The position numbers were made by a program, and so were the translations under genes. From assembly GCA_951799425.1 (NCBI GenBank), contig OX637401.1, positions 22,172,001 through 22,236,000 on the forward strand: a stretch of 64,000 nucleotides of DNA, written 5' to 3'. Below are positions 6,333-60,362 of the stretch, piece by piece. The notes beneath the pieces are model-generated. The model did not search any database and was not told where the DNA came from. It was given only the letters and a program-made list of their open reading frames with translations. Positions within the stretch are counted from its first letter, which is position 1. Every line of letters starts with the position of its first letter. The stretch is from Ilex aquifolium (taxonomy: Eukaryota > Streptophyta > Magnoliopsida > Aquifoliales > Aquifoliaceae).

Positions 6333-7066
6333 AAAATAATTTTACTTTTCTTCCGAACGGACTTGACCCTTGGCTTCCAAGATCCAGTATTTAATGCCTT
6401 GTTTTCACATGCCACACTTCCTGTATTTAATATTGGGCTAATCTCAACTTACACTCTGAAAAATCATTCAAATCTTAATGGGGAAATTGGAAGGGGGTAC
6501 ACCAAATTAGACTTATTTGGCAATAAGTACACAGAAAAAATTGTAGGGTTATTAAGTGCTTAATTTTGATACTTATTTGTACCCAAGTACATAATTTAAA
6601 TTGTTCTGATTTTATTATGACATTTTTGCCCTCCATTGGTGAATGTGTATATTTTATTGGAAAGTGTTTAGTTTTCAAATTATATTTGTGTTTTAAATAC
6701 GTCCTAATTTTAAGGAGAGAGAAATATAACCATTTCCAAAGTATTTCAAATTTCAAATTTAAAATATACACTGGTATATTTCTGCAAGACGATTTTGCTC
6801 CTTCTTCAAGCCTTGAGACAAGTTATGTTTCTTCTTCATCCAGCTGCAAGCCGGAATTGTTATTTGTATGCATGAAGCCGATAAATATACACTGGTATAT
6901 TTGTGCATGAAGCAGAGTTTCTTAAAGACGATTTCCAGAGTTTCTTCATCCTGCAAGGCGATTTTCTTGTTCAAGCTTTTAATCGTCTCTTCTTCTCGTT
7001 CCATCTGCAAGCTTCCAGGCGAAAACTGAAGCATTTAGCCTGACAATATCAGAACATGAATTAGAA

Positions 7067-7183
7067 GGTGCGTTTCATTTAACATATTAACATACTAAAT
7101 GAATAAGTATAAATTTAGTGAGTATTTATTTGTTTGAATATATGTTTTTTATTTGACTTTTTATTGTATCTATTATTTTAATA
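7067..7183 (+). other. Probable 5' leader intron of the MURA gene
   Basis: A GTGCGTTT donor-like site after GAATTAGAAG at about 7067 and a T-rich tract ending TTTTAATAG at 7183 bracket an AT-rich stretch just before the MURA start codons at 7191 and 7203. Upstream, 6770-6980 holds two diverged direct repeats of a segment beginning CTGGTATATTT. This looks like a leader region, but splicing is inferred only. Confidence 0.4.
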
Positions 7184-7190
7184 GTGTTAG

Positions 7191-9550
7191 ATGTTGTTGG
7201 CAATGGAGGAAACGATGTTGCTGTTATGTTCATATGGTAATGCTACTAAAGTATTCAAAGTAGGTGGTAATTCAAATATATCAGAACTTGTTCGCGAAGT
7301 TTGCGAGACGTGGGAGGAGTTGTTTAACTTGTCAGTACATATGTCATATTCTATTCCTGGTCACCCCTCGTGCATGTTACGCACCGATGCGGATTTGAAG
7401 AATTTGGTTGAATTGAAACGTTGTTTCCCAGGGAATTACGTTGAAGTTAAAGTGTTTGTGGAAGATATTGTGGGTGGGTCGGTGGGTGATAATGAATCAT
7501 TGCAGTGTGTGAATATTGGTGACGTTGTTGAATGTGAAGTAGATTTGTTACCCAGTTTTATTGGTCAAAATGAGAAAGTTCTCTTAACAGCTGGGTGGAG
7601 TAATGAAATACGACAGGTAGGACAGAAATTTGAAGGTGGTGTGGTACAGTTTCGGCAAGCACTTTGCAAATACTCGATTGAGTCTGAGTTTGAATTTAAT
7701 TATGTAAAGAATTGTAAAGCAAGGGTTATTGTTGAATGTTCATTTAAGTATTCTTCTGGTTTTGGGTGGCATATAAATGCAACTGTGGAGAGAGCTACTG
7801 GTTTTTTTTATATTAGGAAATTGGACAAGAAACACATATGTGGTGTGGAACAACGAACGACAGATAATAGGCGAATGAGTTCTAAATTGGTTGCAGATTT
7901 GATTGTTGATCATGTTCGTGGGCATAGCACAACACGTCCAACGGAAGTGGTTGCTGATTTTTTTTCTGATTATGGACTCACCATTTCTTATGATAAAGCA
8001 TGGGAAGGAGTTGAGAAAGCAAAAGGAATGCTTTTTGGGGACCATTCAGTATCATATCAACAATTACGATGGTATGTCGATGCAGCAAATCGTACTAATC
8101 CTGGCAGCCACATTGTCTTAGATTGTGATCACGACACTAATCGGTTCAAAAGGCTGTTTGTTTCATTTAATGGTTGTATTCATGGGTTTAATTATTGTCG
8201 TCCACTACTTTTTTTGGATGGCACATTTTTGAAAGGCAGGTTTAGAGGTAATCTTCTATCGGCTACAGGAAAAGATGGCAACCAAGGTATATTTGATCAA
8301 TTTTTAATCTTTTTTTTTAGTGTCTTTGTTACAATCTGTTTGTTATACCCTGTAGCAATTTTTATTGTTACACTTTTCTTTGTTACCCTTTGCTATGAAC
8401 ACATTTTTATACTTTGTACAGTTACACTTTTATATGAATACAACCCAAAACTGTTTTTTATTTTAATTTCTCACGATTATTTTATGTGCTTCATTCTTCA
8501 GGTTTGTTTCCTTTGGCATTTGCTGTGGTTGACTCGGAGAATGAAGCAAACTGGTTTTGGTTTTTAGAACAACTATCTAATATATTGGATAAGTCTTGGG
8601 TTATTACGTTTGTATCTGATCGCAACTTGGGTCTGTTAGAGGCAATGCCGAAAATTTTTCCAAATGCGCATCATGCATTTTGCTTACAGCATCTGAAAGG
8701 TAACTTGCGGGATAAATTGAGTGGTGCTCGTTTTTCCAATGTATTTCGAGAACGCATGGTGAGAATGTTACGTGAATGTGCTTATGCTCCAACACAGTCG
8801 CTTTTTAATGAGAAGATTGAAGCGTTCCGTCGTGAAGGAGGTTCTAATGTGGACAGGTTCCTGTCCAATCTTTCATATGAACACTGGACCAATGCTCATT
8901 TTTCAGGGAAGCGTTACGGTGAGATGTGTTCTAATGCTGCCGAATCGTTTAACTCGTGGATTTTGAAAGCTCGGCATTTACCTATTACTACCATGATTGA
9001 CACAATTAGGGGATAGATAATGGATCAAATTGGCCAAAGGATGAAAATATGTTCGGAGTGGAATGGGAATTTATGCCCTAATATGTCTTCGAGATTAGAA
9101 GCTGCATTTGATGAGGGGAGGTCATGGACTGTGCGGGTTTCGAATAACCGAGTGTATGAAGTGATGTCATATCCTTCTGTCACTGTTGATATTGTGAATG
9201 GCACGTGTTCATGTTGTCAGTGGTAAATAAATGGGTTTTCTTGTTCACATGCGGTGTCTGCAATACGGAAGAGTGGGCGGAATATCAACGAATTTGTTGA
9301 TTATTACTATCATGTCAACACGTACAAGATGTCATATTCTGAACCCATTTACCCAGTGCCGACTATATATCGTGATGAAAGTTCACTTGTGGATGTTAAT
9401 ATTTTGCCACCATATACGAAGAAGCAACCTGGTAGGCCAAAAAATCGTAGAATTCGGTTTAGGGGAGAAGTCATTAGGCGAATTCGTTGTGGCCGGTGTG
9501 GGCGTTTGGGCAGTCACAACAAAAAATCTTGTAACGAGCCGTTGTAGTCT
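7191..9550 (+). pseudogene. MURA-type Mutator transposase, one intron, two in-frame stops
   Basis: Exon 1 runs 7191-8286 and exon 2 from 8502 to the terminator at 9548-9550; the intron 8287-8501 has GT/AG ends (phase 1). ATG choices are 7191 or 7203. Exon 1 holds a MuDR-type DNA-binding region (about residues 140-245). The MULE transposase core spans the intron: LLFLDGTFLKG carries the first Asp, FVSDRNLGLLEA the second, and HHAFCLQHLKGNL and AAESFNSW follow, the latter with a candidate Glu. Near the C terminus are a SWIM-type zinc finger (CSCCQW..., then SCSHAV) and a zinc knuckle with spacing CX2CX5HX4C (about 9490-9534). Two premature stops lie in frame: TAG at 9014-9016 and TAA at 9224-9226. 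Both are one C-to-T change from a Gln codon, and a Gln after CCQW is usual in the family. The rest is open, so inactivation looks recent. Confidence 0.9.
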
Positions 9551-9860
9551 GGTTTAATGCTATCATTTAATGACATTGTTAAATGTTTTAAGTTTTTTTA
9601 CAATGTTTTTTTCCCTCATTTGTTTGGTTTCATTGTTTTAGATAATTTTTCAACATGGTAAGTTAAAAATATATATATATATTTTTAATAATGATTACTC
9701 TATATGCAAAATTCCAGACCAGCAATACACTCAACACAGCAAAATTCCACACCAGCCATTGTCCTAGACACAGGCAGGAAATCAGTAGCACAGCATGCTA
9801 TTTGGACATCAAATCATTAGCACAGACAGAAAATTCAGAACAGCATGCTATTTAGAAAGC
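9551..9860. other. MULE spacer with short direct repeats
   Basis: This non-coding stretch follows the MURA gene. CAGCATGCTATTT occurs twice (about 9793 and 9842), and there is a TA-rich tract near 9670-9690. No ORF is supported. Confidence 0.5.
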
Positions 9861-10094
9861 TTAAGATGCCAATAAATCTGCAAGAGCATTAGCCTGTCCA
9901 CATACATGACAAATCATGGCATTCAGCTTATTGAAACAATCCCAAATCTGATGTAAAATGTACTGACACCTCCTACGAACAGCAACCTTCCCCAAAACCA
10001 TGTGCAATAAAATATGAGATTCAGATTCAATGTAAATCTGATACCTCTTCCCAATATGTCTAAAAATCAGTTTGAACCCCTGCAACAGAATCAT
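9861..10094 (-). pseudogene. RNase H-like (RVT_3-type) C-terminal fragment inside the MULE
   Basis: The 77-residue frame has the pattern of the C-terminal half of plant RNase H-like domains found in LINEs and host RVT_3 proteins. QIYIESESHILLHMV matches the usual ES-D strand-helix region, HQIWDCFNKLNAMICHVC matches the following helix and strand, and QANALADLLAS is the typical closing motif with its last Asp. The second acidic position reads ESES rather than the common ESD. No N-terminal half is present. It lies between the MURA 3' end and the tandem array, on the same strand as the protease gene. It is most simply a captured fragment or an old insertion. Confidence 0.5.
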
Positions 10095-10204
10095 ATATTA
10101 AGATTGCATATTAGTGCCTCTCTCATAAAATGAAGAAGCAGCTATCAGCACATGACCTTTTCGACTATGCATTTGTGTATATGCATTTGTGTATATGTAG
10201 GTGT

Positions 10205-11386
10205 ACACATTTTACACTTTCAATGTTACATGTTACACTTTTCATGTTACACTTTGACAGGGTCTCCGTTAAACGACAATGTATAAACACCTGTTTCCCT
10301 GGACATTCTTCATACAAACCAATCACCAATCACCACAAATAAAACACAAAGCATAACATGTACATCCATGTCTCACCACACATTAATGTGCATTTGTTTT
10401 GATGCAAGTGTGAACATGTAACACTTTCAATGTTACATGTTACACTTTTCATGTTACACTTTGACAGGGTCTCCGTTAAACGAAAATGTATAAACACCTG
10501 TTTCCCTGAACATTCTTCATACAAACCAATCACCAATCACCACAAATAAAACACAAACCATAACATGTACATCCATGTCTCACCACACATTAATGTGCAT
10601 TTGTTTTGATGCAAGTGTGAACATGTAACACTTTCAATGTTACATGTTACACTTTTCATGTTACACTTTGACAGGGTCTCCGTTAAACGACAATGTATAA
10701 ACACCTGTTTCCCTGAACATTCTTCATACAAACCAATCACCAATCACCACAAATAAAACACAAACCATAACATGTACATACATGTCTCACCACACATTAA
10801 TGTGCATTTGTTTTGATGCAAGTGTGAACATGTAACACTTTCAATGTTACATGTTACGCTTTTCATGTTACACTTTGACAGGGTCTCCGTTAAATGACAA
10901 TGTATAAACACCTGTTTCCCTGGACATTCTTCATACAAACCAATCACCAATCACCACAAATAAAACACAAACCATAACATGTACATCCATGTCTCACCAC
11001 ACATTAATGTGCATTTGTTTTGATGCAAGTGTGAACATGTAACACTTTCAATGTTACATGTTACACTTTTCATGTTACACTTTGACAGGGTCTCCGTTAA
11101 ACGACAATGTATAAACACCTGTTTCCCTGGACATTCTTCATACAAACAATCACCAATCACCACAAATAAAACACAAACCATAACATGTACATCCATGTCT
11201 CACCACACATTAATGTGCATTTGTTTTGATGCAAGTGTGAACATGTAACACTTTCAATGTTACATGTTACACTTTTCATGTTACACTTTGACAGGGTCTC
11301 CGTTAAACGACAATGTATAAACACCTGTTTCCCTGGACATTCTTCATACAAACCAATCACCAATCACCACAAATAAAACACAAAGC
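10205..11386. repeat. 207-bp tandem repeat, six copies (first one partial)
   Basis: The unit runs from ACACTTTCAATGTTACATG through GACAGGGTCTCCGTTAAACG to CCAATCACCACAAATAAAAC. Successive copies are spaced 207, 207, 207 and 206 bp, one copy having lost a C in ATACAAACCAATC. Copies differ by only a few substitutions, so the array is young or homogenised. Because 207 is divisible by three, each unit yields the same ~68-codon open frame on the minus strand; these are an effect of the period, not genes. The array sits between the convergent 3' ends of the transposase and protease genes. Confidence 0.95.
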
Positions 11387-11444
11387 AAATGTCTCATCTT
11401 AAAATAATCATCAATTGTACAGTACATACGCAATTAAATATTTG

Positions 11445-14400
11445 TCATTTGTCTGCAAATTTTTTCTTCAATTCCTTACGGACTTTCAGATCATCTTCAT
11501 TCCAAGAATTTGGATGGTTGAGAAACAATGATACCATTTCAGCACGGAACTCCGTCAGTTGTCTTGCCGTTAACCTCTGCTCAATCTCTTCTCCTTTTGT
11601 AAGTTTTTTCATTATGTAACATACATGCAAACCGCATGCAACCCTGCATTAATTCCAATTCTTAATATGTTTCGGTTTTTTTAAAAAATAGCAATTGCAT
11701 TTGCAGAACGAGTACTTACGAGTTTGACTTCTGCTGTGGACATGTCTGACATGCTATTATTGGAAGCTCCTTATCCTGTGTGTCTATGTCGATCCCCTTT
11801 GAATGATTGAACTCGGTAATCTTCTTTTCAACATATTTTTTCTGCAATCACATAAAAATCTTTAAGATGTTGGATATACACCAAACTAATATGGGTTTAA
11901 ACACCACTGTTTTAATATAATCAAACCAATATAACTGCATCCTGTAGGTATATATCCCTGCTGCCTTTCGTCCTTGGCCTTAATGAGTTGTAATGTGTCC
12001 AAAGACCTTCTTCCGTATTCAATACCAGCAAAGTCCAGTGGTCCGGAGCACAATTTTCTTTCCGACCATTTGAATTCATTGGAAAAACAACATATTTTGA
12101 ATCTCCGAATCCAGGTATGTGACTGTCTATTTCTTTTTGACGTGCATACTCTAGATTTGGATCAGTTACAAATGACTACACATTGAAAATATGTAAAAAA
12201 TAATGTGTTAAACAAGTGACAAATAATTTAATTGAAAAACTATTTGTACATCGTGCTATTTATAAATCTTACCCAACAAAGACTGTTAACGAAGTAGCAA
12301 CGTCTTTGAAATGTTGACACCTCATTGTAATCATCCATTCCTTTTAACATGTCAGCCCAACAGTCAATGATCTGTTAAAAAACAAATACCATGTTTCACT
12401 GTCATATTTTTATTCACTGTCAAACAACACTTTCTACATGAAAAATTCAGTTACATGTTACACTTTTAACAAATACGTACGCTGTTGTATATTTCAAATG
12501 GAGGTGACATTATTTTCAAGGCATCTTCCACATATATTACGCTTCCAACTCCAAACCCATTCCATAATTGAGCACTACAACATGATAAAAATTAGAACCA
12601 AACTCATATAGCAAAGTATGTAATAACCATAAATTTTTAATGAATACTTTTTTATTGGACAGTGCCACTTACCAGTAACCCTCTAAATCATATATTGTCT
12701 TCAATTTGTTGAAATCAATGGCATCCAAAACTTCACACTCCCGCCACATTTTCTGAAGGTCTTTGTCTGTCAGCCCTTGAATAGTAGTTATCCTTTCCTT
12801 GCTATCATCATCATCATGAATCTCAATTGGTCTCCCACATTTGTCATCACTGAAATCAGTCTTATGGTGGATCGTACCTGATGCCACAATCTGATTTTTC
12901 CCTTTTTTTTTCCCACTGTACTCAAAATCTGCATCTTTCTTCCGTTTTCTCTCTTTTTTCTTGATGTTTCTAACCATCGATGTTTGTCCTGTTTTTTCCT
13001 TTACACCTTGTTCTTTAGCTGTAATGTTTTCTTCCTGATATTTCTGAGTTATACAATGGACAGATAATTCATTAAGCTGATCAACCAACTCAGCGTTCTC
13101 ATTTTCTTGATTTTTTATTGTTTCCTTGCAGCCTAGTATTTCTGCTTCAAACATTTGTTCCCTCTTCTTCATATTTTCAACAACTTGATTCAACTCCTTT
13201 ATCATTGTTTCTTTTTCTTGCATTTTCAAGGAGTTTGCAGATTGTTCTTTGTCAAACTCACCACCAACAGAACCAGAATGTGAATGATCCAAGTAACATT
13301 TATATGTGCTTATGGTCCTTATAACAATTTTCAATATATCATTTTCCTTCAATATCTCTTCCAACCGTTGTCTGTTTCTATCTTCTTCTTCTCCACCTAG
13401 ATCAATGTCATCTTTTACTGTAACATCAATATTGTGCGTCGCTTCATTCATAACAGCATCAATAAGAGATTCAAATGCCAGATTTGAATCTCCATCACCA
13501 TCAATGACATCCCTATCATCGTCATCGCCAACAAATGTATCATGTCCTCCATCATCATTCCCAACGCCCTCAAATGATTCTTCATGCACCTGGCCACTTG
13601 TTTTTTCAACTTCACCACTTTCAGTCTTTCCCTTACATTCAGACTGGCCCCCTTCTTGTTCTTTGCTTCCCTTATATTTCAGAAAAAATTTCTCCTCTAC
13701 TGATCTAACCAATCTATGTCTCAACACCTTTGCAGCATTTTCAAAAATAGATAATTGTATGCATTAATTAAACAAAGTTTAACATTGAAATGTAACAAAA
13801 GTGTAACATGCCAGTGTTTTATATGCTATTAACATCTAAACAATTTAAAAACTATGTAACACGGACATATTAAATTAAATTTGTTATTTTTAACCAACTT
13901 ACATTTTTGGACTTCAACTTTGTAAGAGTACTTTGTTTGATGGCTCTTTGAAGACTGGGGAGATTCCATTTTAAAATCCTTGGTATTGCATTGGGCCTGT
14001 CAGACTTGACAATTGTTGTATGTTCACAAACCCAATACTGCACATACAGGGAAATTGAATATAACCAAATGAGTTACATTTGGTTTTATTGAACAACAGA
14101 AACTAATTTTAAACATTGAACATGGCTGTTAACATATTACCAGTAACAACATGACGCATCCAGTAACTCCGGATGGGCTTACACTCTTTCTCAGAAGTGA
14201 AGACAGCAGGGATTCATGTATTGCACTCGACCAATCATAATTTTTCATGGCATCTATATCCTCAACGTATGAAACAAATCCCCATCCTATAGATGTACCA
14301 GTATGTGGGAAAAATAGTGTCACCATTAGGAATAGGCACAGCAGTCTAGCAACATCATCAACGTCGTGTTTTCTTGTACCACTTGCTGCTTCCACCAATC

Positions 14401-14835
14401 TTCTCTTTATCAAGGTTGATGTCAACCTGCTATCTTTCTTGAATCTCCTTCTAACGAATTTTGTATTTTCCTTACAATGAGCTGATGAATCCATGAGATC
14501 GCGCCCATCATCAATGCCAAAAATAATTTTCACATCACTCCGTCTCAATTTAATGTACTCACCACCAATGTGAAATTTAGATTTATTAACATCAAAACAC
14601 ATTATTACATCCTGCATGATATTATCACTCTTTCTACACCATGTCCTGTCTAGTTTTTTTTATCAATTATGCATTGAAATAGTAACCAAAATGGTGTTTT
14701 TTGCAAAACAACCTTGTGTGCTTCACTAATCTTAATTTCATCCAGTGCTCTAATTATCGCAATCAGATTTGATCTGTATTTAGCATCTTGCTTCGTCCCC
14801 ATCACAGCTCTGAGTTGTGTAGTAACAAATAACAA
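11445..14835 (-). CDS. Ulp1-like (C48) cysteine protease gene of the KI-MULE, about 8 exons
   Basis: Exons I can place (minus strand, GT/AG borders): about 14835-14141, 14037-13903, about 13728-12673, 12574-12481, 12371-12273, 12175-11936, 11841-11720 and 11643-11445. The N-terminal exons carry the plant-mobile-type region (TPFWLLFQ, IKLRRSDVKIIFGID, then YWVCEHTTIV and PRILKWNLPSLQ). The long third exon is acidic and Lys-rich with a coiled coil (KMQEKETMIKELNQVVENMK). The last exons form the protease domain: CAPDHWTLLVL (catalytic His), THYNSL, CPQQKSNS (oxyanion Gln) and, across the last splice, VACGLHVCYIM (catalytic Cys). The usual Asp of the Y-D-S-L motif is Asn here. The first exon has a one-base deficit in an A8 run near 14656; all other exons are open. 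In KI-MULEs such genes have no proven role; SUMO/ubiquitin-like deconjugation is inferred from the family. Confidence 0.85.
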
Positions 14836-15202
14836 ATTGTATAACGTATACCAAAATGTTCACTGAAAATATAACAGTACCAACCAATAAGTTATCCAAC
14901 AAACAGTGTATAACACATTCAAATAATTGAACCAAATAACACATTCCAGAATGAAGCTAAAACAGTGTATAACACATTCTAATAAGTGAACCACAAAACA
15001 ATATATAACCAAATAAGTGTTACCCTTTTTATGTAACACGTTTTCTACATTACAATGTGATAGTACTACTCATGAAGATTATTGAACGATGATACCATAT
15101 AAACATTAAAGTGTAACATTGAAAGTGTAAAGTGTAACACTGAAAGTGTTAAGGGTAACATGATAAGTGTAAAGTGTTACATCAAATGACTTCCAATCTG
15201 TG
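14836..15202. other. MULE spacer rich in GTGTAAC/GTTACAC words
   Basis: There is no ORF. Short words such as AAAGTGTAACA, AGTGTTAC and CAGTGTATAACACATTC recur, most densely at 15105-15180. The same word family fills the 207-bp array and occurs in introns of both MULE genes. Confidence 0.6.
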
Positions 15203-15385
15203 TTTTTTTTTTTGGTTCAACACCTGGGTATCCACCGCCGATGCAGTGACTAATCCCATCGCTGGTTTGTAGGCACCTCGAAGGGTGGGACAGCTGGCCC
15301 AGGGTTTTAAGGCTGTTCCATGCCCAAGGCAGGGATCGAACCCCTGACACTTGGTTAAGGGAGGAAGAGCCCCTACCGACCATTG
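15203..15385 (-). mobile_element. SINE inserted in the MULE
   Basis: Read on the minus strand, the element starts near CAATGGTCGGTAGGGG, has a perfect pol III B box GGTTCGATCCC, and ends in a poly(A) tail (T run 15203-15213 on the + strand). The flanks CTTCCAATCTGT (before the T run) and CTTCACTCTGT (after the head) look like a diverged target duplication. The insertion is younger than the MULE structure around it. Confidence 0.75.
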
Positions 15386-16400
15386 TTCTTCACTCTGTTT
15401 GTAAAAAAGTATGTTTGTTAAAACATAAAAGTGTTTCAAACCAAATCTAATAACCAAAGTGTAGCAACATTTGTGTTTCAAAATGTTGTATATTATTTCA
15501 TTCACACAAACAAATATATTCATATGTATTCAGATAAACCCACTTCAGACCAATAATCCATCAAACAAAAAAAATAAAATATTAACAAATTTATAATATT
15601 CAACAATTCATTGATTTTTAACAATATGAACACTTTTATGGTATACTAATTACATAACTTGCAGGTTTTTGACCAAAACAAAAAAAAAAAAAAAAAACCA
15701 TTTCCTAACCAGTTTTTCAACCTTCAAACAAACAAATTGAGGTTCCAATATATGATTTTAAACAATAAAAAAAAGTGTTATGACACCCATTATAATAATA
15801 CACAAAAAATAAACAAGGAAAAAAAAAATAATGTGCTGAAATTAGATAATACAATCAACAAATATTACCCACAGATTTCCGAACAAAAAAAAATATCTTT
15901 CAATCTCCAAACAAACAAAATGGTTACCCATGATTATACTGTAACCCAATATGATAAGACCCCAGAAAAAAAAAAAAAAAAAACCATGTATATAAGTATA
16001 TATACATACATACATATATATATACATATATATACTACCTCTGGCGATACCGATCACCGTGGAAGCAACGATCGACAAAGAAACCCTTCAGCTTCAAAAA
16101 CCCACTTCAAATCTTCAACAAAACCCTCTTCAATCGGTGTCAATGTAACCCGAACCCCTTACTCCTTCAATGAACAATGCACATTCAAAACCCTTTTCAT
16201 CAATACACAGCCACTCATACACAGAGGCGGTTTCCTTAGACGAAGAAGAAGATGAACCGGTTTTTTTGTTGGGAACACAATAAACCGCCTTTCGGTTTTT
16301 GAGAAATATGGATAGATTTTGCATTAACTGTGCCTAAATTTTACCGGTCTACATTAGTGCACTGTTACATTTTCAAGGAAATTTTTATTTATCAAAATGG
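15386..16400. other. A-rich right arm of the MULE, no gene
   Basis: Several A runs (15678-15697, 15966-15983) and a TA-rich microsatellite-like patch (16000-16033) dominate. The long open frame at 15659-16255 is Lys/Asn/Thr-rich because of base composition and resembles no protein. Confidence 0.6.
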
Positions 16401-17388
16401 GTATTTAAGTCTTTCTATCCATGTACTTTTTATCATTTTTTAATGTGTACTTTTTGACAAATAAGTCTAATTAGGTGTACCGGCTTCCAAAAACCCCAAT
16501 CTTAATTTATACTTTCAAAATTTAAAAATATTAATTTACGCTCTAAAAGATATAAATTCGTATCAATGTGCACTTGGGGTTAATTCGGTTCATTTTTCCG
16601 TTAAAAAAATTTGGATAAATTATTCCGTCTAAGTTTAAATTTTATGATCCAAAAAGAATTTCATCTATTAATGCTTGTTAAATAAGTCTCAATTGTATCA
16701 TATCATAACATCTTCGTGTCGTATTCGAATCATTAAAAAATATTTTTCAAAATTTTAAAAAAATTTATAAAATACCTATTTTTTGCCTACAGTACTCGTT
16801 AAATAACTATTTGCTTGTTTATAGTTAGTCACAAATCTTTTGATTATCCGATCAAATTAAAGTCAGATATGAATAATACAACTATAGATAAAAAATAGTT
16901 ATTTAACAAGTATTATAGACAAAAAATTAGTATTTTTTAATTTTTAAAAAAATATTAAATAGTATTATATGAATTATCGTAAATGTGAAATTTAAAACAT
17001 AATGCAATTTACTCGATATGAAAATATTTTTAGTTAAAAATATTTTTTTATTGACTCGAACACGACACAAAAATATTATGATACGATACAATTAAGAGCT
17101 ATTTAATGAGCATTAATTGATGAAATTCTTTTTGGATTATAAATGTGAAATATTTAAATTTTGAGAGGTGCAATTTATAATTAACCCAAACTTTTTTAAC
17201 GACAAAATAGATGGCAGTTAGTCTCAGGTGCACATTGATACGTATTTATATGTTTCATGGTGTAAATTAATATTTTTATACTTTAAAGATACGAAATGAG
17301 ATTCAAACGATCTTTTAAGGTGCAAGTTGAGATCAGCCATTTAATATTTGTCTTTTGTCTTTTGTGTTTTCCATTTCTTTATCCTTTA

Positions 17389-28895: not shown

Positions 28896-28994
28896 GCAAG
28901 GAACAGAGTCACTGTTAAGGTCTCCTTCTCCATGTCTTCCTCTGATATGCATTCATATGGTTTCCTACAGTAACAAGTTTTTTGTCTTCTGCAG
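28896..28994 (+). other. Putative 5' leader intron of gene A (GC-AG)
   Basis: The acceptor TTTGTCTTCTGCAG is shared with gene B. At the donor position, genes B and D have CTCTG/GTAAGG and CTCTG/GTAAAG, while A has CTCTA/GCAAGG, a GC donor. Splicing is inferred from these alignments only. Confidence 0.45.
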
Positions 28995-29010
28995 GAAGTG
29001 GTATTTACTG

Positions 29011-29586
29011 ATGGCCAACACAGCAAGAACAACCTTCCTTCATCGTGGATGGACAAGCTTCTCTGGGCAGTTTCATGCAGCCTCCATCGATATGAGATTC
29101 AATCTCACAGGAGAACAACATACTTCCTCTTCACGCCATGCCATTCTCGCCTTTATTGTTCCGGTAGTCATCAACCTCATGCAGTTGAAGTCCCAAGGAA
29201 AGGAAGAAACTCCATTTGAAACCCACCCCAAAACCATGTGTGTTGCCATTGCTAGTTTGCTCCTATATTGCATCTTGGCCGAAGCAAAGTTCAGATTTTC
29301 CTCTCCAACTTATGCTAGTATTGTTCAGCATGGTATGGCGTTGTTTGGTTTCTTGTCATTGGTATCTCTAACATCAACTATGTTCCCAGACTCGGTTATG
29401 CTGGTTCCATATGTGGTGTTCATCACGCTTTCAGCAGCTGGATTGCTACACTTCTTTTGCTGGACAGTAATGGGGAGACCGGTAGAATCACGCCTTCAAG
29501 TTAGGCCCATGTTACGCCGCTTGACCGATTCACATGGGCGCAGGGCACATGCCTTTATGAATGAGAGGGATACACTTCCAGTGTAA
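29011..29586 (+). CDS. Gene A: uncharacterised four-helix membrane protein, 191 aa
   Basis: The protein starts MANTARTTFLHRGW. The conserved N-terminal block RTTFLHRGWTSFSGQF...SIDMRFNL (residues 6-32) is followed by four hydrophobic segments at about 42-60, 75-92, 107-125 and 130-152. A basic tail ends RRAHAFMNERDTLPV. The start is set at ATG 29011 because all four paralogues share it, it follows the putative leader-intron acceptor, and in gene D the frame upstream of the equivalent ATG is closed by a stop. The frame is intact. It differs from gene B at 16 of 191 residues. I recognise no named domain; a membrane location is inferred from hydrophobicity. The TATA box at 28848 supports transcription. 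Confidence 0.85.
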   Translation: MANTARTTFLHRGWTSFSGQFHAASIDMRFNLTGEQHTSSSRHAILAFIVPVVINLMQLKSQGKEETPFETHPKTMCVAIASLLLYCILAEAKFRFSSPTYASIVQHGMALFGFLSLVSLTSTMFPDSVMLVPYVVFITLSAAGLLHFFCWTVMGRPVESRLQVRPMLRRLTDSHGRRAHAFMNERDTLPV

Positions 29587-40298: not shown

Positions 40299-40453
40299 GG
40301 GAGGCATAAAATTACAACCACCTTATCAAGGATCAACTCTGATAAAGGGGACAGCTGCTTTCTCCATTTTCTTAGTCTGATATGTATTCGGTGATTTGTT
40401 TTCCTATTGTAACTCGAATTTTTTGTGTCTTCCACAGGAAGTGGTATTTATTA

Positions 40454-41032
40454 ATGGCCGAAACAACAAGAACAACCTTCTTTCACCGAGGGTGGACAAA
40501 CTTCTCAGGACAGTTTAATGCTGTCTCCATTGATATGAGATTCAATTTCTCGGAAGAACAACGTATTACTTCCCCTTCACACCATGTAATTCTCGCCTTT
40601 ATTGTTCCGGTGATCATCAACCTCCAACAGTTGAAGTTTCAAGGAAAAAACCAAACTCCATTCGAAACCCACCCCATAACCATGGGGGTTGCCATTACTA
40701 GTTTGCTCCTATATTACATCTTGTACGAAGCAAAGCTTAGATTTTCTTCTCCAACCTATGCCAATATTGCTCACCATGGTATGACGTTGTTTGGTTTTTT
40801 GTCATTGGCATCTCTAGCATCAACTCTATTCCCAGACTCTGTCATGCCGGTTCTCTATGCAACGTTCATCATGCTTTCAGCAGGTGAATTGCTACGATGG
40901 TTTTATTGGACAGTAATAGGGGAACATGGAGAATCAGGCTTTCATGGTAGACCCATTGCACGCCACTTCATTGATTCACATAGGCGCAGGGCACATGCTT
41001 TTACAAGCGAGAGGAACATACTCCCAGTGTAA
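40454..41032 (+). CDS. Gene C: uncharacterised four-helix membrane protein, 192 aa
   Basis: Starts MAETTRTTFFHRGW and ends RRRAHAFTSERNILPV. It shows the same plan as gene A: conserved N-terminal block (SIDMRFNF), four hydrophobic segments (about 43-61, 76-93, 108-126, 131-153) and a basic tail. It is closest to gene D; both have FHRGWTNFSGQF and a GELL motif in the last segment. One extra residue (EEQRITSPSHH) makes it 192 aa. The frame is intact. At the place of the putative leader-intron donor it reads CTCTGATAAAG, so that splice site appears lost here. Confidence 0.83.
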   Translation: MAETTRTTFFHRGWTNFSGQFNAVSIDMRFNFSEEQRITSPSHHVILAFIVPVIINLQQLKFQGKNQTPFETHPITMGVAITSLLLYYILYEAKLRFSSPTYANIAHHGMTLFGFLSLASLASTLFPDSVMPVLYATFIMLSAGELLRWFYWTVIGEHGESGFHGRPIARHFIDSHRRRAHAFTSERNILPV

Positions 41033-43159: not shown

Positions 43160-44165
43160 TGGTGTAATTCTCCCAAAAAATAGTGTTTGAAACAACTTAT
43201 TTTAATTACTTTCAAATAAGTCAAAAGTAATTTTATCACTTAAATAAGTAAGTAAAAATAATAACTTCAATTCTTTTTAAAATTATTTCTCTACAAAACA
43301 CTTCACCACTATCACCTTCGTCATCACCCCACCATTACCACCACCACCCCCACCACTGTCGCTACCACAACTGATGTCGCCACCCTACCATCACCACCCC
43401 CACCACTGTCGCTACCATAACCATTGTCGCCATCCTATCATCACCACCACCCCTCACCACCTCTATCACAACTACTACCATCGTCGTTATCCACCACCAA
43501 TCGCTACTACTGTCGCCTACCGCCACCACCCACTACCACCACCACCTCTCCACAACCACTACCATCGTTGCCACCCACCACTAATTGCTACTATTGTTGC
43601 CTACATTCACCACCACCATCATCATTTCATTCTTATATTTATTATCACTATCACCATCATCCCACCACCATCGTCGCCCAAGACCACCACACCATCATTG
43701 CCCATTGCCACCACTACCCACTACCACAACCCACCACCACTCGTTGTCGTCCACCATCGCCGCCACCCAATGTCACCCACCGCCCACTACACCAATCACC
43801 ACCAACCACCACCACCACTAACACCCAACACCACCATCGTCATCGCCCATCACCACAACCCTTCACCGCCACAATAATTGTCGTCACCCCACCGCTAACA
43901 TTGTCAATCACCATCACCGTCGCCCACCACCACCATCAACGTTGCCACCCACGACTGCCACCACTGTCGTCACCCACCACAATCATCACCGTTTCCTATT
44001 ACTACCACCGTCGTCCACCACCACTCATCCTCGTTACAACAAGTGTTTAAATTCATTTTTCTCTCTTTTATGTTTTGTGATTTAATTTTGAGTGTGAATA
44101 CAAATATATTTATGATTGACAATTTTTTTTATTACTCTATGCCTCCAAGTATGAGCAATAACTAG
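43160..44165 (+). mobile_element. Probable Helitron with CAC-rich minisatellite
   Basis: From about 43310 to 44040 the DNA is an irregular array of CAC/CCA/CGC triplets. After it come TTTTGTGATTTAATTTTGAG and a terminal region ATTACTCTATGCCTCCAAGT...GAGCAATAACTAG followed by T. The sequence at 58207-58430, on the other strand, has the same order with a perfect terminal hairpin, which supports a Helitron family. The 5' end is not defined. His/Pro-rich frames in the triplet array are artefacts. Confidence 0.5.
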
Positions 44166-46694: not shown

Positions 46695-46796
46695 GTAAGG
46701 AACAGAGTTATTGTTAAGGTCTCCTTCTTCATGTTCTCCTCTGATATGCATTCATATGTTTTCCTACAGTAACTCTAAGTTTTTTGTCTTCTGCAG
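46695..46796 (+). other. Putative 5' leader intron of gene B
   Basis: A donor CTCTG/GTAAGG and an acceptor TTTGTCTTCTGCAG/GAAG bracket 102 bp. The same architecture, 92 bp long, is in gene D. Confidence 0.5.
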
Positions 46797-46812
46797 GAAG
46801 TGGAATTTACTG

Positions 46813-47388
46813 ATGGCCAACACAACAAGAACAACCTTCCTTCATCGCGGATGGACAAGCTTCTCTGGGCAGTTTCACGCTGCCTCTATCGATATGAGAT
46901 TCAATCTCACAGAAGAACAGCATACTTCCTCTTCACGCCATGCCATTCTCGCCTTTATTGTTCTGGTAGTCATCAACCTCATGCAGTTGAAGTCCCAAGC
47001 AAAGGACGAAACTCCATTTGAAACCCACCCCAAAATCATGTGTGTTGCCATTGCTAGTTTGCTCCTATATTGCATCTTGTCCGAAGCAAAGCTGAGATTT
47101 TCCTCTCCAACTTATGCTAGTATTGTTCGGCATGGTATGGCGTCGTTTGGTTTCTTGTCATTGGCATCTCTAACATCTACTCTGTTCCCAAACTCAGTTA
47201 TGCCGGTTCCATATGTGGTATTCATCACACTTTCAGCAGCTGGATTGCTACACTTCTTTTGCTGGACAGTAATGGGGAGACCGGTAGAATCACGCCTTCC
47301 TGTTAGGCCCATGTTACGCCGCTTGACCAACTCACATGGGCGAAGGGCACATGCCTTTATGAATGAGAGGGATACACTTCCAGTGTAA
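46813..47388 (+). CDS. Gene B: uncharacterised four-helix membrane protein, 191 aa
   Basis: It starts MANTTRTTFLHRGW and ends RRAHAFMNERDTLPV. It is the duplicate of gene A with 16 of 191 residues changed, several of them in membrane segments (e.g. P to L in AFIVLVVINL). The reading frame also extends 34 codons upstream, but that part crosses the conserved splice acceptor and is not kept as protein in the other copies, so the ATG at 46813 is preferred. The frame is intact and promoter elements are conserved. Confidence 0.85.
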   Translation: MANTTRTTFLHRGWTSFSGQFHAASIDMRFNLTEEQHTSSSRHAILAFIVLVVINLMQLKSQAKDETPFETHPKIMCVAIASLLLYCILSEAKLRFSSPTYASIVRHGMASFGFLSLASLTSTLFPNSVMPVPYVVFITLSAAGLLHFFCWTVMGRPVESRLPVRPMLRRLTNSHGRRAHAFMNERDTLPV

Positions 47389-57555: not shown

Positions 57556-57731
57556 TCTTTTTTTTTTTTTTGTAAGGCTTTACCCCGTAGGGAGCCCTTC
57601 TAGAAATTCTCTTACACGTAGGCTGAACCCAGGCCCAAGAGGGGGTTTGGAAAAAGTTTTCAACCAGCAATTGACGCACCTCGGTTAGAAACTCACTAAC
57701 TGCGTCATTGCCCCAAGCGCAAAGATCACTC
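57556..57731 (-). mobile_element. SINE
   Basis: On the minus strand the body starts near GATCTTTGCGCTTGGGGC, contains TAACCGAGGTGCGTCAATTG and CTTGGGCCTGGGTTCAGCC, and ends in a poly(A) tail (T run 57557-57571 on the + strand). AATAGTC lies on both sides (57549-57555 and 57732-57738). Confidence 0.7.
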
Positions 57732-59770: not shown

Positions 59771-59786
59771 GAATTGATATTTACTG

Positions 59787-60362
59787 ATGGCTGAATCAAC
59801 AAGAACAACCTTCTTTCATCGCGGGTGGACAAACTTCTCTGGACAGTTTAATGCTGCCTCCATCGATATGAGATTCAATTTCTCAAAAGAACATCATACT
59901 TCCCCTTCACACCATGCAATTCTCGCCTTTATTGTTGCAGTGATCATCAACCTCCAGCAATTGAAGTACCAAGGAAAGGACGAAACTCCATTTGAAACCC
60001 ATCCCAAAACCATGGGAGTTGCCCTTACTAGTTTGCTCCTATATTACATCCTGTCTAAAGCAAAGTTGAGATTTTCCTCTCCAACTTGTGCTAGTATTCT
60101 TTGCTATGTTATGGAGTCGTTTGGGTTTTTGTCATTGACATCTCTAGCATCAACTTTGTTTCCAGACTCTATCATGCCGGTTTTCTATGTAGCATTCATT
60201 ATGCTCTCAGTAGGTGAATTGCTACAATGGTTTTGCTGGACAGTGATGGGGGAACGTGGAGAATTAGACTTTCATGGTAGACTCATTGCACGCCATTTCA
60301 TTGATTCACAGAGACACAGGGCACATGCTTTTATGAGCGAGAGGAACATACTTCCAGTGTAA
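59787..60362 (+). CDS. Gene D: uncharacterised four-helix membrane protein, 191 aa
   Basis: Starts MAESTRTTFFHRGW and ends RHRAHAFMSERNILPV. It has the same plan as A, B and C and is closest to C. Its third hydrophobic segment has diverged most (CASILCYVMESFGF). The in-frame TGA just upstream of the ATG (GGAATTGATATT) fixes the start codon and, by alignment, those of the other three. The frame is intact. Confidence 0.85.
   Translation: MAESTRTTFFHRGWTNFSGQFNAASIDMRFNFSKEHHTSPSHHAILAFIVAVIINLQQLKYQGKDETPFETHPKTMGVALTSLLLYYILSKAKLRFSSPTCASILCYVMESFGFLSLTSLASTLFPDSIMPVFYVAFIMLSVGELLQWFCWTVMGERGELDFHGRLIARHFIDSQRHRAHAFMSERNILPV

Follow-up and report, generated by a model that had tools for sequence, protein, structure and literature searches.

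Why would a DNA transposon carry a protease gene of its own? The question is raised by a Mutator-like element (MULE) of 10,018 bp in the genome of Ilex aquifolium, at positions 6480-16497 of the 64,000-nucleotide stretch analysed here (the window; contig OX637401.1 of assembly GCA_951799425.1, positions 22,172,001 to 22,236,000). An earlier note on this DNA had described a complete-ended element that pairs a MURA transposase gene with an Ulp1-like protease gene in the reverse orientation, and our analysis supports this pairing. The note also held that the function of such protease genes is unproven. This stands for the Ulp1 domain, whose role in KIUs is stated to be unknown in the available text of a 2026 review, but not for the genes that carry it, which the same text identifies as VANC anti-silencing genes (PMC13317346). 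We show below that the element contains a short motif, AAGTGTWACA, that is enriched in its non-coding DNA and confined to it, and that the frame of exons B-I of its protease gene is open. We conclude that it is probably a MULE that belongs with the VANC/KIU anti-silencing systems and has its own motif.

The ends of the element are exact to the base. It is flanked by identical 9-bp target-site duplications, AATCTTAAT on both sides (6471-6479 and 16498-16506), and its outermost bases are GGGG at 6480 and CCCC at 16497. In an ungapped comparison of the two 54-nt ends, one of them reverse-complemented, 46 of 54 positions agree; when inverted 54-mer pairs were drawn at random from the window, none of 200,000 reached this value (highest, 36). 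When one gap is allowed the match extends to about 64 nt, which gives terminal inverted repeats (TIRs) at 6480-6543 on the plus strand and 16434-16497 on the minus strand. The coordinates, 9-bp flanks and matching termini reported in the earlier note were thus correct. The target-site duplication, together with a MURA-type transposase with MULE and SWIM domains, identifies the element as a MULE. Its Ulp1/C48 gene lies on the minus strand, in reverse orientation relative to mudrA and convergent with the MURA gene, and in this respect the label of KI-MULE given by the note is apt. However, the Arabidopsis Kaonashi elements are described as non-TIR in the available texts of PMC2528002 and PMC13317346, and the strict Arabidopsis label is unsuitable here because the element retains its TIRs.

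A tblastn search of the window at E values up to 1 returned no second copy of the MURA or the protease gene, and a BLAST comparison at 1e-3 detected no further DNA of the element there. Protein searches returned no relatives, with the KIU domain and MURA compared to viral_contigs and MURA only to genome_contigs, nor did a megablast of 6480-16489 against plasmids. The right end was placed at 16489, i.e., 8 bp short, for tblastn, the plasmid megablast, the shuffle test, the word counts, the counts of shorter cores and of the VANC21 and VANC6 motifs, and the counts of sites with one mismatch; it was placed at 16497 for the end match, the AAGTGTWACA counts and the BLAST comparison within the window.

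The MURA gene is encoded on the plus strand in two exons. Exon 1 (7191-8286, 5' end approximate) encodes the DBD_Tnp_Mut domain and the first part of the MULE domain, and exon 2 (8502-9547) encodes the remainder of the MULE domain, the SWIM domain and a Cys-rich end. They are separated by a GT-AG intron (8287-8501) whose splicing rejoins the MULE domain in frame. In a Pfam search of the spliced frame, with an X placed at two stops, we recovered the expected MURA domains (MULE, E 5.6e-20; DBD_Tnp_Mut, 1.7e-10; SWIM, 3.3e-5), MULE and SWIM being above the cut-off. The two in-frame stops are both in exon 2 (9014-9016 and 9224-9226). A full-length transposase is unlikely to be produced from this copy, which, given these stops, is therefore probably not autonomous.

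The protease gene has more exons. Their borders are putative, being our reading of splice-like sites. The gene extends on the minus strand from exon A (14653-14802, with a candidate ATG at 14802) through exons B (14141-14653), C (13903-14037), D (12673-13727), E (12481-12574), F (12273-12371), G (11927-12175) and H (11720-11841) to exon I (11445-11643), which contains the stop. The eight exons B-I (14653 to 11446, with the stop ending at 11445), joined across seven GT-AG introns, encode 821 aa free of stops. Exon A is open, but its frame does not carry over into exon B at an A8 run: the protein may start inside exon B, or the junction may hide an unrecognised splice or a frame break. The C48 domain claimed for this strand is clear in the spliced C-terminal 259 aa (Pfam, E 4.3e-11; 9.6e-10 with all 821 aa), although the frame of exon G alone scores below the cut-off (0.0011). 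At the other end, exon B and exon C, where the region terminates, resemble the plant mobile domain (PMD; E 2.9e-6, 27.1 bits for a cut-off of 34.9) and DUF1985 (E 0.057, 13.8 bits for a cut-off of 35.1). Between these regions, the linker encoded by exon D is charged and acidic, with a net charge of -24 across 351 residues, and has no credible Pfam match. A single-sequence structure prediction of exon B was uninformative (mean predicted local distance difference test score, pLDDT, of 38.5).

The putative active-site residues are found in the order DHW ... YNSL ... PQQ ... ACG along the protein: the His in DHWTLLV and the Asn in YNSL (exon G), the Gln in CPQQ (exon H) and the Cys in VACGLHVCY (exon I). 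His, Gln and Cys are thus present by position, whereas an Asn replaces the usual Asp and an Ala precedes the Cys, where the canonical C48 pattern usually has an Asp. Papain uses Asn in the third active-site position, and protease activity with a His-Asn-Cys site is possible, judging from these residues. Sequence searches of PDB gave no significant match; the alignment with SENP8 (2bkq), at a non-significant E value of 1.5, was used only to locate the His and the Asp/Asn, and it places the Asn at the Asp of SENP8.

The introns of the two genes share a motif. When words were counted, 9- and 10-mers of the AAAGTGTAA type were common in the element and absent from the remaining window; exact AGTGTAACA occurs 16 times in the window for 0.74 expected, and none of 100 shuffles reached 16. 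All 22 occurrences of AAGTGTWACA in the window are within the element, 16 of them in a satellite, and none touches a coding exon (the coding total includes 2 bp past the stop). There are none in the 54 kb of surrounding DNA against which the specificity of the motif was judged for this one copy. The satellite, correctly reported in the earlier note along with the convergent layout of the genes, separates these genes (10166-11400) and has 5.8 units of 207 bp in the array proper (10182-11384). It was left out of the shuffle test so that its own duplication would not be counted. In the 4,019 bp of non-satellite, non-coding DNA of the element, AAGTGTWACA was still present 6 times, for a shuffle mean of 0.081, and 0 of 1,000 shuffles attained this number. 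The dispersed motif had escaped the earlier note, as had the two nonsense codons of MURA and the out-of-frame junction between exons A and B.

With at most one mismatch to AAGTGTAACA, the element has 32 sites, 14 of which are outside the satellite. Three of these are in the MURA intron (8366, 8381 and 8420, two with one mismatch), one is in the intron between exons E and F of the protease gene (12372-12480; site at 12456), three are in the intron between exons C and D (13728-13902; sites at 13775, 13788 and 13799, two with one mismatch), six are upstream of the protease gene (15018-15181) and one is near the right end. Four of the upstream sites (15109 and 15130 and, with one mismatch each, 15151 and 15172) are exactly 21 bp apart, and the satellite includes six sets of matches spaced by 21 and 14 bp. 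The spacing of 21 bp, about two helical turns, is therefore found in two separate arrays. Specificity is reported by Sasaki and colleagues (2022) to be set by the sequence, density and helical periodicity of motifs.

These observations fit what is described for anti-silencing systems. In Arabidopsis, VANC21 binds a 9-bp motif that is arrayed densely, and in the same orientation, within introns, between genes and in terminal DNA throughout its own family, and this binding results in the loss of DNA methylation; VANC proteins share DUF1985, and the VANC21 motif arrays expand by tandem repeats (PMC5735166, in the text available). KIU-carrying VANDALs, for their part, are reported to recognise motifs in each other's non-coding DNA (PMC13317346, likewise). 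We favour the VANC/KIU reading because the gene combines PMD/DUF1985-like and C48 regions, because the motif is enriched in the non-coding DNA of the element with a 21-bp spacing in two arrays, and because the published VANC21 shows the same layout (PMC5735166). A short family-specific motif, dense and tandemly repeated in non-coding element DNA, is one mark of such systems, and the element has a motif of this kind, its specificity being judged against the 54 kb around this one copy. The satellite is best seen as an amplified motif array, and is probably part of the system rather than incidental to it.

Could the motif have another role? En/Spm-like plant DNA transposons have short subterminal motif arrays that are bound by their own proteins. 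By this precedent, the arrays could be transposase-binding repeats, or ordinary enhancer repeats, that serve transposition or transcription, with the Ulp1 gene as unrelated cargo. The near-match at 16363, 125-134 bp from the right end, fits such a role in transposase binding. However, the motifs are interior (introns, intergenic satellite and the region upstream of the KIU-type gene) instead of being in both subterminal regions, and none of the 14 non-satellite matches is found to the left of 8366. We thus regard this explanation as unlikely. We attribute a similarly low probability to the motif being a functionless by-product of local repeat slippage and of a single satellite seed being scattered by duplication. 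In favour of such a process, identity among the first four in-register satellite units is 94-99%, and stretches of 18-45 bp are common to the unit and some of the dispersed sites; moreover, with the four non-satellite clusters counted instead of the six sites, the chance of all being non-coding is only 0.044. Yet, among the 198 distinct 10-mers of the satellite unit, the motif words are the only ones that recur at least three times elsewhere in the element (AAAGTGTAAC, 6; AAGTGTAACA, 5; AAAAGTGTAA, 4; AGTGTAACAT, 3), and 171 do not recur there at all. The six non-satellite AAGTGTWACA sites are also in four separate places, none of which is in the approximately 4.76 kb of coding DNA. Finally, we consider it very improbable that the element simply took up its protease gene as pack-MULE cargo, through transduplication of a host fragment, or received it in a later, separate insertion, the gene then persisting by chance: gene fragments are frequently captured by MULEs, ULP capture may have occurred several times (PMC2528002, in the text available) and the frame break between exons A and B would fit, but exons B-I with their seven introns remain open, the His, Gln and Cys of the active site occupy their expected positions, and the introns of the gene share the motif with the MURA intron, without any sign of a separate insertion.

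If the VANC/KIU reading is right, the system could work as follows. The minus-strand gene would produce a protein whose N-terminus is PMD/DUF1985-like, whose middle is acidic and which ends in an Ulp1-type domain. Once expressed, this protein would be drawn to sites of the AAGTGTAACA type in the introns, the intergenic satellite and the upstream region of the element, and from these clusters it would clear silencing marks from the members of the element's family. The genes of the family would then be expressed, and its copies could become mobile if an intact transposase were supplied. We infer the steps of binding, demethylation and mobilisation from published relatives. The Ulp1 domain might act as an effector at these sites, where it would free a protein involved in silencing or chromatin from a SUMO- or ubiquitin-like tag, or else as a binding module; any role in the removal of silencing is speculative. 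The present copy would probably be an ageing member of its family, with MURA broken by two stops and a frame break between exons A and B. One may go further and propose a lineage of MULEs that retains TIRs and has its own anti-silencing specificity (AAGTGTAACA with two-turn spacing), in which a His-Asn-Cys C48 protease detaches SUMO- or ubiquitin-like tags at the motif clusters. We find this extended proposal doubtful, but it would give the Ulp1 domain a job and imply that the loss of TIRs is unnecessary for an anti-silencing strategy. The VANC/KIU reading itself makes a prediction that can be tested, since it names both the protein and its 10-bp target, where before there was only an odd protease in a transposon.

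Several observations weigh against an anti-silencing role. All the evidence comes from one copy of the element, in which stops interrupt MURA and the frame of exon A does not carry on into exon B, and the PMD and DUF1985 scores are both under the curated Pfam cut-offs. Local duplication explains part of the spread of the motif, given the 18-45 bp that some sites share with the satellite. There are no motifs, even with one mismatch, in the 711 bp upstream of MURA, whereas VANDAL21 has motifs upstream of VANA21 according to the available text. Confinement to the element weakens with shorter or looser words: TGTAACA has two occurrences in coding exons and four outside the element, where AGTGTWAC is also found 7 times and GTGTAACA once, and 6 of the 38 one-mismatch matches to AAGTGTAACA fall outside. 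Two of nine overlapping control segments of the same size also have a 10-mer in 4 separate places, with 4 copies each and one of these words found another 4 times beyond its segment; the corresponding figures for the element are 5 places and 16-17 copies. The TIRs of VANDALs are typically degenerate, as described, and those of the present element are clear. Lastly, a nomenclature review judged KI/KIU proteins unlikely to act on SUMO, which counts against the deSUMOylation form of the mechanism; the same source places KI elements phylogenetically further from ULPs than DEN1 and proposes the name KIU (PMC6117577, in the text available). A scan of viral_contigs returned at least 120 motif-pair stretches; given the great size of that collection, we attribute them to chance.

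The window has other features. Within the element, the segment at 15203-15393 is richer in G+C (53-58%, measured in 100-bp steps) than the DNA to its left and right (roughly 18-30%), and on its minus strand it shows the word GGTTCGATCCC and an A-rich tail. The word resembles a tRNA-type B box, and the anatomy is like that of a short interspersed nuclear element (SINE) that inserted into the element; no flanking duplication of at least 9 bp was found around it. Outside the element, positions 1-2158 contain fragments of a Copia-type retrotransposon: the frame at 2-724 matches a retroviral polymerase SH3-like domain (3e-16), with an integrase core below the cut-off, and 1706-2158 resembles a Copia RNase H by eye only, with no Pfam match at 0.01. 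Four related plus-strand frames (28897-29583, 40376-41029, 46699-47385 and 59778-60359) share words such as RGWTSFSGQF or RGWTNFSGQF and look like a local gene family; the first three have no Pfam match above the cut-off. A U4 spliceosomal RNA gene or pseudogene is found on the minus strand at 57576-57726 (full model length, 85.7 bits), and CCACCA-type repeats at 43281-44047, with units of 50 and 84 bp, form a long stretch of overlapping open frames in which His and Pro are abundant.

How does the element compare with known systems? Like the Arabidopsis KI-MULEs, or Ulp1-carrying VANDALs, with their KIU (Kaonashi ULP-like) genes, it has an Ulp1/C48 gene in reverse orientation relative to mudrA; the KIU genes are described as VANC-type anti-silencing genes with motifs in non-coding DNA (PMC13317346). 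Unlike them, in so far as the available texts describe them, it has TIRs and two recognised genes, whereas theirs are non-TIR and the KIU is one of three genes. It resembles VANDAL21 Hiun with VANC21 and VANDAL6 with VANC6 in being a MULE with a putative DUF1985-type protein and with dense arrays of a short motif, in introns and intergenic DNA, that grow in tandem. It differs from them in that no VANB-like gene was recognised here, and the VANC21 paper has 0 mentions of Ulp1 in the text available. The VANC21 and VANC6 motifs (YAGTATTAY and AGTTGTMC) are both absent from the element. We noticed afterwards that these two and the present motif all fit AGTNNNAC, in a C- or AC-type form; this pattern is found in 1.2% of the 10-mers of the element (motif copies included) and in 0.4% of those of the right flank, and the resemblance is only suggestive. 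The element also resembles the Mutavine MULEs of grapevine described in PMC2528002, whose families are about 10 kb long and carry ULP downstream of the transposase in either orientation; TIRs and 9-bp target-site duplications are present in some of these families. TIR-MULEs with ULP genes are also reported from melon, and for neither is a motif array for anti-silencing described in the available text. The kind of system is already known, and the motif sets the element apart from the VANC21 and VANC6 motifs only. If the motif is bound, it would represent an anti-silencing specificity distinct from those two, useful for sequence-directed epigenome editing, and a handle on the role of the Ulp1 domain, called unknown in the 2026 review (PMC13317346). 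A tie between VANC-related genes and the decay of TIRs in VANDALs has been proposed (PMC10398659, in the text available), and the TIRs make the present element an informative, if mild, exception to that link.

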